NCBI GenBank assembly: GCA_022014175.1
Contig: JAKLLR010000010.1
Location: 1-35,247 of the forward strand
Length of the DNA: 35,247 nucleotides
Direction: 5' to 3'
Origin: Gammaproteobacteria bacterium
Lineage (GTDB): Bacteria; Pseudomonadota; Gammaproteobacteria; Immundisolibacterales; JAKLLR01
A model generated the notes under the pieces. That model was not told the DNA's origin, did not search any database, and worked only from the letters and a program-made list of their open reading frames with translations. Below are positions 22,621 to 24,723 of this stretch, in pieces. How positions within the stretch are numbered: position 1 is the first letter of the stretch; every line of letters starts with the position of its first letter. The translations under genes were made by a program, and so were the position numbers.

Positions 22621-23157
22621 TTATCGAGCCGGGGGGGTGGCTGGCGGTTGTCGTTGCGGTGTCTGCTGCTGTTCGCGCCAGCTGCGGCGCTGTTCGGGCG
22701 TCAGCGACTGCCAGCGTTCGCGGATCTGCTGCCGTTGGGTTGGATCCATCTGCTGGAAGCGACGGCGGGCGGCCTGAATTCGCTCCTGCTGATCCGGATC
22801 CAAGGTTTGCCAGCGCTGAAAATTCTTGCGTAGTTCCGCCCGCTGATCCGGATTGAGTTCACGCCAGCGCTGGATGCGTTGTTGTAGACGTGCTCGCTGC
22901 TCAGGGGTGGCTGTGGCCCAGTGGCCCGCACCCCTTTTTAGCCGCTGCTGGCGGATTGCGGACATCTCGTCCCAGCCATCCTTAAACCGGGACAGGGCCG
23001 ACTGTTCTGACTCCGACAGTTGGCTCCAGGGGGTCGCTGCCGACTGGGGCCTGTGTTCGGTTTCACCTGCGGTAGTGTCGGCCATGAAGGCTAATATCAA
23101 GCCCAGAATCAGAGTACTCCGGATCAGCCAGTGTTGTGCGGGTTTAGCTCTGCTCAT
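22621..23157 (-). CDS. Secreted DUF3106 repeat protein
   Basis: The 178-residue protein has a signal peptide (IRSTLILGLILAFMA, cleavage near TAGE). About five imperfect 18-residue repeats follow, of the form RW..L.PDQR..L...F, which is the DUF3106 pattern and should give a helical periplasmic chain. It is the third gene after an ECF sigma factor and DUF3619, an arrangement familiar from betaproteobacteria. The ORF track begins at TTG 23250, but the 31 extra residues would sit before the signal peptide, so I favour ATG 23157 even though its ribosome site is poor. Function is unknown. Confidence 0.8.
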   Translation of the reverse strand: MSRAKPAQHWLIRSTLILGLILAFMADTTAGETEHRPQSAATPWSQLSESEQSALSRFKDGWDEMSAIRQQRLKRGAGHWATATPEQRARLQQRIQRWRELNPDQRAELRKNFQRWQTLDPDQQERIQAARRRFQQMDPTQRQQIRERWQSLTPEQRRSWREQQQTPQRQPPATPPAR

Positions 23158-23323
23158 CGGCGTTGTCCGGTTCTGGAGATGTTGGGCTGCCAGGGTTTCG
23201 ATGGCGTTGTCGAGCCAGGAACTGTCGGCTTGATCCTGGTCGGCGAGCAACCCCGGAAACGCCCAAGACGGGTTCCGCGAGTCACAGACCTACCCCGGGT
23301 GGTGGATGAACAGCAGCACCGCG

Positions 23324-23659
23324 CTATACCTGACCATTCTCTGAAAGCCAGTCGTAGAACTCGATCTCCTGATAGAACTCAATTTCCTGGGGCGCGGCGA
23401 GCAGGTCAAGACTTTCAATGGGCAGAGCTGCCCCGTTGTCTGCCGTGGGCAGGGCGAGCCAGAGCAGCAGGGCGCAACTGGTGGCGAGGAGCGCCCCAAC
23501 TGCTGGCAGCCGACCTGCTCGGCTTTGTGCTGGGGCGCTGGCGGCAGCCAGGGCCTGCCGTCGTGCTTCGGAGAGGTGGCCCCGAGTCACTGAATCCAGT
23601 TCACCAATGGTGGCGTCCAGCGCTGCGCGAACCTGTTTGTCCAAGTGGGTGTCACTCAT
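23324..23659 (-). CDS. DUF3619-like putative anti-sigma or membrane protein
   Basis: The 111-residue protein has a polar N-terminal half with a DATIGELDSVTRGHLSEARRQAL helix, one membrane span near 54-69 (GALLATSCALLLWLAL), and a short acidic periplasmic tail. Such proteins follow ECF sigma genes and are thought to act as membrane partners of the sigma factor; this is inference from context. It overlaps the sigma gene by 8 bp. The tail holds a QEIEFY tandem repeat just before DWLSENGQV. Confidence 0.75.
   Translation of the reverse strand: MSDTHLDKQVRAALDATIGELDSVTRGHLSEARRQALAAASAPAQSRAGRLPAVGALLATSCALLLWLALPTADNGAALPIESLDLLAAPQEIEFYQEIEFYDWLSENGQV
23354..23389 (-). repeat. 18-bp in-frame tandem duplication in the DUF3619 gene
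   Basis: Two adjacent 18-bp units with three mismatches encode QEIEFY twice. The divergence between copies, all at third codon positions, suggests the duplication is older than those in the TraB and zapG genes. Confidence 0.75.
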
Positions 23660-24191
23660 CAGCCTCGTCCTGCAGTGCGGCGCGAACCCGGCTCATAGCC
23701 CGGGATAGATGTGTTTTGACGCTGCCCTCCGAGCAGGCCATCGCGGTAGCAGTAGAGGTCACGTCGAATCCCTCCCAGACTCTGAGCAGGAAGGCCTGGC
23801 GCTGGCGATGTGGCAGTGTTTTCAGAGTTTTCATCAGTGTTCGCGCGGTATTGTCCCCCAGGGCCAGTGCCACCGGGTCGGGATTGGTGGCATCCGGAAT
23901 TGCGTTGATCGGATCGGTTTCGTCATCTTCGCTTTGAACGAAAAAACCAAAGATTCGCCGACGTGCCCCCTGCCGCCGGTGCCAGTCCCGAATCCGGTTC
24001 TGCAGTACCCGGTGGAATAATGGTGGCCACTGCTCCAGGGGCCGCCGGGCATAGGCTTTGGCAAAGCGTAGCATCGCCTCCTGAACCAGGTCGAGGGCAT
24101 CCTCCCGGTTGCCGGTCGAGAGTTGGGCGATGCCAAAAGCTCTTTTTTCAACGCTGGCCAGAAAGTCATTAAGCGCGATCCTGTTGTTCAG
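23652..24191 (-). CDS. ECF-type RNA polymerase sigma factor with non-canonical start
   Basis: The frame encodes region 2 (FLASVEKRAFGIAQLSTGNR, then EDALDLVQEAMLRFAKAYA, and PLFHRVLQNRIRDWHRR) and region 4 (LKTLPHRQRQAFLLRVWEG, then CSEGSVKTHLSRAMSRVRAAL). The family is the sigma factor that precedes DUF3619/DUF3106 genes. The frame opens upstream after a TGA but holds no ATG, GTG or TTG before conserved region 2; the first ATG (24074) would remove half of it. I therefore place the start tentatively at CTG 24191, giving about 179 residues; ATC 24179 is another option. A sequencing error or frameshift upstream is also possible. Confidence 0.8.
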   Translation of the reverse strand: MNNRIALNDFLASVEKRAFGIAQLSTGNREDALDLVQEAMLRFAKAYARRPLEQWPPLFHRVLQNRIRDWHRRQGARRRIFGFFVQSEDDETDPINAIPDATNPDPVALALGDNTARTLMKTLKTLPHRQRQAFLLRVWEGFDVTSTATAMACSEGSVKTHLSRAMSRVRAALQDEADE

Positions 24192-24291
24192 GCCCTGCCC
24201 CCGATTGGTTGGTGGTTTCAGTCGGCAGTTAACCCGACGAACTGATCAAAGTACAGGCGGTACCTAATGGACAGCACGGTCTATTGGAATC

Positions 24292-24630
24292 TTATCGTCC
24301 TGGGTGCCGCTGCCGAACCTGGGCATGGCGTTCGCCTTTACGGTCGAGCCGATGATCGATACGATCACCTTTGCGGTCGAGGTGCTGGTCGATGCGGTCA
24401 CCCTTGCGGTCAAGCCGCTCCGCCAAACGCTGTTTGCCATTCGCCTCAGCTCGGGCGGATCGCTGATCCAGGCGGTGGTCGATGATGTCGCCGCGGCGGT
24501 CGAGTCGGCGGTCGATCTGGTCACCTATGCGATCAAGCCGGTCATCGACTTCCCGCGGATGAGATGCGGTTGCTACGGCGCTGATGGTGGCCAAGAGGAT
24601 AACCAGTGCTATGTTAGATCCTGTTTTCAT
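24292..24630 (-). CDS. Small secreted protein with 11-residue RLDRKGDRIDx repeats
   Basis: The 112-residue protein has a signal peptide (SNIALVILLATISAVATA, cleavage near residue 22). Repeats follow of the form RLDRKGDRIDx: three toward the N-terminal side (31-41, 42-52 and a degenerate unit from 53), a short spacer, then three at 72-82, 83-93 and 94-104. Eleven-residue periodicity with Leu and Ile at fixed places fits a right-handed coiled coil. AGGAG lies seven bases before ATG 24630, so this is a real gene although the ORF track buries it inside a longer antisense frame of the nitrilase gene. It is divergent from that amidase gene. Function is unknown. Confidence 0.82.
   Translation of the reverse strand: MKTGSNIALVILLATISAVATASHPREVDDRLDRIGDQIDRRLDRRGDIIDHRLDQRSARAEANGKQRLAERLDRKGDRIDQHLDRKGDRIDHRLDRKGERHAQVRQRHPGR
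24319..24540 (-). repeat. Degenerate 33-bp repeats encoding the RLDRKGDRIDx units
   Basis: The DNA repeats follow the protein units, with 33-bp spacing and a 24-bp insertion in the middle unit. The last three copies are the most alike, suggesting recent expansion or homogenisation at the 3' end. Confidence 0.7.
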
Positions 24631-24650
24631 CTTTTTCTCCTGCAACATTT

Positions 24651-24662
24651 GGGGTTTACCCC
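24651..24662. promoter_or_regulatory. Inverted repeat upstream of the repeat-protein gene
   Basis: GGGGT, TT, ACCCC in the 93-bp divergent gap, about 20 bp from the repeat-protein start. It may be an operator or a small hairpin in the leader; no known consensus is recognised. Confidence 0.25.
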
Positions 24663-24723
24663 AGCAACAACGGGTGAGATCGGTTTTGGTTGACAGCTCA
24701 GGGAAAATTTTCAGGCGTGGGTT

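Follow-up and report, generated by a model that had tools for sequence, protein, structure and literature searches.

The window analysed here, a stretch of 35,247 nucleotides from a gammaproteobacterial contig, raises the question of whether a short repetitive reading frame on its minus strand, hidden inside a longer one, encodes a genuine protein, and, if so, which shape this protein adopts, under whose control it is made and what it does in the cell. The frame (24292..24630, minus strand, stop codon at 24292-24294) begins with ATG and codes for 112 aa, and a ribosome binding site (AGGAG, 24637..24641, minus strand) lies 6 nt before the start codon, just as an earlier note on this DNA had reported. 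The N-terminus, read by eye as MKTGSNIALVILLATISAVATA, has the features of a signal peptide (residues 1-22, 24565..24630, minus strand) with an ATA/S cleavage site, and Ala22 is nearly invariant in an alignment of 59 relatives, which upholds the previously proposed export of the protein. The warning that the gene would be easily missed within a longer antisense ORF also proved justified, because the open frame extends beyond the start codon, on the strand opposite the divergent CN_hydrolase gene, to form a 371-aa ORF in which a longest-ORF caller can easily misplace the start of the short gene. The CN_hydrolase neighbour occurs in none of the relatives' loci and was dropped as functional context.

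Searching genomes for homologues, we detected the family in 8 out of 56 sampled genomes of relatives and in 29 out of 369 genomes of the class. The named collection comprises 61 loci, 59 of them credible, and since these homologues keep the frame, the signal peptide and the register of the repeat, the gene is placed beyond chance, confirming that it is genuine and encodes a small bacterial protein with the sequence features of export. Two Lachnospiraceae matches (L107, L108; E 1e-5) were set aside as chance repeats. Hosts include Chromatiales, Woeseiaceae, Microbulbifer, Lysobacter/Luteimonas, Cycloclasticus, Methylophilaceae and Gallionellaceae, as well as Desulfobulbus, Desulfocapsa, Desulfuromusa and Nitrospinaceae MAGs, with binning errors being possible for MAGs. 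Comparison of the 59 members with Pfam, NCBIfam and PHROGs returned nothing beyond weak matches, either to coiled-coil-like families or to unrelated ones; for instance, the window protein reached 19.1 bits against MT0933_antitox (PF14013), below the gathering cut-off of 27. A PDB sequence search gave no match at E<=0.001, no match to the family was present in the plasmid collection, and a literature search on DUF3619, DUF3106 (see below) and the repeat motif found nothing. The family is thus unnamed and has neither a Pfam or NCBIfam family nor a solved structure. Some copies have decayed, as in G050 (L006/L127), where a frameshift separates the two repeat arms, N-arm and C-arm, and in G041 (L007/L137), which carries a stop-containing remnant and in which no sigma factor of the NF006550 type was found.

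The earlier note had described six 11-residue units whose periodicity would favour a right-handed coiled coil or an extended helical rod in the periplasm, stitched by salt bridges. Six units are present, and the DNA of the gene forms a tandem repeat with a period of 33 nt (TRF score 103), but the units are not contiguous and fall into two groups of three on either side of a turn. Unit counting places the N-arm at residues 31-63 (24442..24540, minus strand), followed by a turn or linker block, NGKQRLAE, at residues 64-71 (24418..24441, minus strand), which was delimited by its invariant Gly65 and the Leu-to-Leu step, and by the C-arm at residues 72-104 (24319..24417, minus strand). The unit consensus reads R-L-D-R/N-K/R-G-D-R-I-D/E/N-x (position 4 is also given as x), and across 489 units the 4-3-4 core spacing of hendecads is found, formed by Leu1, Gly5 and Ile8 with Gly in the centre; Gly occupies position 5 in 218 of 219 N-arm units and in 257 of 270 C-arm units. 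These three residues share one face of an 11/3 helix, and in both arms a basic flank (positions 0/4/7) and an acidic flank (positions 2/6/9) border the Leu1-Gly5-Ile8 seam; salt bridges along the repeats are plausible. The mean charge per unit is near neutral in N-arms (-0.09) and basic in C-arms (+1.66). The turn Gly is found in 67 of 68 relatives, with Ala or Ser at -7 and, in most cases, Ala at -4 and +5, and the Leu-to-Leu distance across the turn is conserved at 19 residues. Counted from this Gly, the core residues lie at -4/+5, -7/+8, -11/+12, -15/+15 and -18/+19, and even before structure prediction this register suggested that antiparallel pairing of the arms would put Leu opposite Gly and Ile opposite Ile.

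If the protein folds into a hairpin, its arms are expected to be equal in length. The number of units per arm varies from 3 to 7 across the family (4-7 in the longer members), and of the two features that the earlier note expected to be kept in relatives, the reading frame, together with the unit pattern, is maintained, while the repeat number is not fixed; instead, the two arms vary together. Of 68 single-module proteins, 49 have the same number of units in both arms and 65 show a difference of no more than one (Spearman 0.72, p=4e-12; a match this close arose in none of 20,000 permutations), with rho unchanged in a reduced set of 55 proteins and a rho of 0.68 when arm lengths are measured in residues, independently of unit scoring. 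For these final counts the scoring of terminal units was relaxed and multi-module and fragment proteins were left out; a first pass with a stricter unit score gave a rho of 0.51 and equal arms in 46 of 82. Arm matching persists after phylogenetic correction, for which a tree of the neighbouring sigma factors served to compute independent contrasts (r=0.56, n=42, p=9e-5). Five members contain two hairpin modules (L004, L031, L054, L061, L062).

AlphaFold2, supplied with small alignments of family members, predicts helices at residues 25-63 and 67-108 of the window protein, with a turn at 64-66 (mean pLDDT 82), and at residues 29-90 and 94-160 of the longer relative L003 (mean pLDDT 83); in both models the turn coincides with the conserved Gly, and the arms mostly have a pLDDT of 85-95. 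The helical part of the earlier proposal therefore stands, and the single rod gives way to two helices joined by a turn. Foldseek with the two models retrieved nothing from the PDB at E<=0.001; with the longer model the best matches, generic and non-significant, came from antiparallel coiled coils, among them the p85 iSH2 domain, with PspA ranking lower. Taken with the arm matching, the models indicate that the protein is probably a length-matched two-helix hairpin of 11-residue repeats and not a single rod, in which the turn and the matched arms point to packing of the helices on each other, and for which a right-handed supercoil would follow from the 11/3 periodicity. PspA/Vipp1 and p85 iSH2 likewise combine two long helices with a tight turn, but they have no significant structural or sequence match to the family, and PspA is cytoplasmic and not built of 11-mers.

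The genomic context gives a hint to the regulation of the gene. Downstream, on the same minus strand, follow an ECF sigma factor gene of the PRK09047/NF006550 type (23652..24191; 211 bits vs a cut-off of 173), a gene for a 111-aa DUF3619 protein with one hydrophobic segment (23324..23659; PF12279, 23.8 bits vs a cut-off of 22.2) and a gene for a DUF3106 protein with an N-terminal hydrophobic segment (22621..23157; PF11304, E 3.7e-25; the frame opens at 23250, with 23157 as the likely Met). By its position and by analogy with AabA (see below) the DUF3619 protein is a putative membrane anti-sigma factor, and the DUF3106 protein a putative periplasmic partner. The sigma gene lies directly downstream of the hairpin gene, on the same strand, in 53 of 82 distinct loci, accompanied by DUF3619 in 43 and by DUF3106 in 49 of these 53; in about a third of the loci the hairpin gene is located elsewhere, and DUF3619 and DUF3106 remain with the sigma gene. 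The association also holds at the genome level, the sigma factor being present in 27 of 29 hairpin-bearing genomes (all except G073 and G212, where none was detected) vs 70 of 340 others (OR 52, p=3e-15). In the window, the start of the sigma gene is uncertain, as no in-frame ATG, GTG or TTG occurs between the upstream stop and the conserved N-terminus (24180-24245, minus strand), and the nearest candidate is a CTG at 24191 preceded by GGGGGCAGGG. The DUF3619 gene contains an 18-nt tandem duplication (QEIEFYQEIEFY) at 23355-23389, near the C-terminus of the protein.

Upstream, the divergent intergenic region of 93 bp contains an ECF-type promoter, TGTCAACC-N15-CGTT (24669..24695, minus strand), bearing out the suggestion of a control region of the gene's own. 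The -35 element GTCAAC (24689-24694) and the -10 element CGTT (24669-24672) are separated by N16, the distance from the site to the start codon of the hairpin gene is 38 bp, and the pattern TGTCAAC-N15-17-CGTT has this promoter as its sole match in the 2.2-Mb host genome. The 5' untranslated region contains an inverted repeat, GGGGTTTACCCC, at 24651-24662, downstream of the -10 element and ahead of the ribosome site. Scans for sigma-70 promoters and terminators found none, and Rfam gave no match across the region from 22.5 to 25.6 kb.

The promoter is kept in relatives. A count of spaced dyads that used no preset motif returned TGTC-N19-CGTT as the best dyad upstream of 41 of 50 sigma-linked loci (shuffles at most 5), with similar numbers upstream of unlinked hairpin genes. 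The full pattern, TGTCAACC-N15-CGTT, is found in 68 of 79 upstream regions of hairpin genes, unlinked copies included (among which L048 is counted, its duplicate L135 being linked); the spacer is exactly 15 in 67, and the distance to the ATG is mostly 35-68 bp. Several Methylophilaceae and Gallionellaceae loci have the variants TGTCGTC or TGTAGAC with GCGTT. Where the hairpin gene and the sigma gene lie apart, the exact site precedes both in five genomes (G332, G118, G297, G350, G203); in G227 it is exact before the sigma gene and has one mismatch before the hairpin gene, and in G234 and G173 it is present before the hairpin gene only. The site also often precedes the sigma gene in genomes where no hairpin gene was detected. 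Together, these data suggest that promoters of one type probably drive both the hairpin gene and the neighbouring envelope-stress sigma gene. In 28 genomes the exact pattern occurs 56 times vs 32 times for a reversed control; this modest enrichment indicates that the regulon is small and that most further sites may be chance.

A closely similar arrangement has been described experimentally for SigAb, an ECF factor reported as Acinetobacter-specific and responsive to copper, whose promoter was mapped by 5' RACE, mutagenesis and ChIP-seq to a -35 element GTCAAC and a -10 element CGTT with a spacer of 17 (16 tolerated) (Bacon et al. 2025, PMC12153292). Its operon encodes the sigma factor, the 107-aa membrane anti-sigma factor AabA, which was compared with CnrY, and the helical periplasmic protein AabB, and its three direct targets are sigAb itself, relA and the sRNA sabS, with no mention of a hairpin repeat gene (PMC12153292). 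Shared with our system are both promoter elements at near-identical spacing, the order of sigma factor, small membrane anti-sigma factor and periplasmic helical protein (in the window the compartments are judged from sequence), autoregulation through the same site before the sigma gene, and a very small direct regulon. The likeness is thus one of promoter and gene order, and a difference is the hairpin gene, absent from the reported SigAb targets; by analogy with the SigAb experiments, the neighbouring sigma factor would recognise the hairpin promoter. In the Cnr (CnrYXH) and RpoE-RseA-RseB systems, too, an ECF sigma factor, a membrane anti-sigma factor and a periplasmic partner are encoded side by side, but their periplasmic proteins and promoter motifs are different and a hendecad hairpin is lacking.

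Both the hairpin fold and its regulation are well supported computationally, and we consider it quite probable that the hairpin is an ECF-induced periplasmic effector of a SigAb-like circuit answering envelope, possibly metal, stress. Envelope stress would free the sigma factor from the DUF3619 membrane anti-sigma factor, with the DUF3106 protein as periplasmic partner; the freed sigma factor would then fire the promoters before the hairpin gene and before its own operon, and hairpins would build up in the periplasm. As to their biochemical action, we can only guess that they serve as a protective scaffold or bind unfolded protein or components of the envelope. The hairpin might instead belong to the signalling part, acting in the periplasm as a sensor or a feedback inhibitor, where it would bind the anti-sigma factor and tune sigma release. 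RseB, CnrX and CpxP are periplasmic regulators of this sort in their own systems, helical sensors being known from ECF systems such as Cnr, and such a role would fit a hairpin gene that heads the sigma cassette in 53 of 82 loci and shares its promoter type with the sigma gene. A core sensor, however, ought to accompany the anti-sigma factor, as DUF3619 and DUF3106 do by staying with the sigma gene in the third or so of loci where the hairpin gene is unlinked; because, in addition, 70 of the 97 genomes with the sigma factor have no detected hairpin gene, while the promoter is retained even where the hairpin gene is unlinked, we prefer the effector and regard a sensor as rather unlikely.

The repeats themselves invite further readings. 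Their 11-residue helical periodicity and charged flanks recall the lipid-binding amphipathic helices of apolipoproteins (A1/A4/E, PF01442), synuclein and LEA proteins, and the hairpin could accordingly open on the membrane to coat or stabilise envelope lipid under stress. Weak PF01442 matches in 42 of 59 members and the common face of Leu, Gly and Ile are in keeping with this, but the scores stay far below the gathering cut-off of 90 bits (best 39.2 bits among the ten members listed), the hydrophobic face is narrow and has Gly, present in nearly every unit, as one of its three positions, and surface binding does not require length-matched arms, which here flank a fixed turn; we consider this reading improbable. 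It is also unlikely, though slightly less so, that the hairpins, once induced by the sigma factor, self-assemble into a polymer in the periplasm, in the form of fibres or sheets with a width dictated by arm length. In an antiparallel pair the like-charged flanks would adjoin, leaving the hairpin positive on one face and negative on the other, and such faces could, speculatively, allow stacking, with Leu of one arm packed on Gly of the other. Finally, the highly repetitive DNA and the differing unit numbers among relatives could mean that the repeats are mere low-complexity sequence, under no selection for a fold and maintained by slippage of the DNA repeats. Conservation of unit positions and turn in the protein across phyla at 35-57% identity, co-variation of the arms after phylogenetic correction, and a conserved promoter and cassette all speak against this, and we disfavour slippage as highly improbable.

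For an unnamed exported family across Gamma- and Betaproteobacteria, these results predict the fold, point to a likely regulator and supply a DNA signature. Moreover, the circuit reported as specific to Acinetobacter, with its GTCAAC/CGTT promoter and its membrane and periplasmic anti-sigma pair, may represent a single instance of a far more widespread system, in which our data suggest the hairpin protein to be the most conserved target besides the sigma factor itself. The arm lengths varying in step provide a natural series for studying how helical hairpins with core Gly are specified.

Additional regulon genes are tentative. Recurrent among the extra targets of the promoter pattern are DUF4382 lipoproteins (G203, G296, G190), the pattern preceding the DUF4382-type lipoproteins L199, L203 and L204, with an HMM match in L199 and L204. 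It also lies ahead of genes for small secreted proteins that are rich in Gly and have GxG-type repeats (L201, L206, L207; G190, G129), for which no Pfam family was found, and in G243 the Gly-rich protein has a looser form of the pattern. In G236 (L158), a different small secreted His-rich frame occupies the interval between the promoter (919) and the sigma gene (1501), where other genomes carry the hairpin gene.
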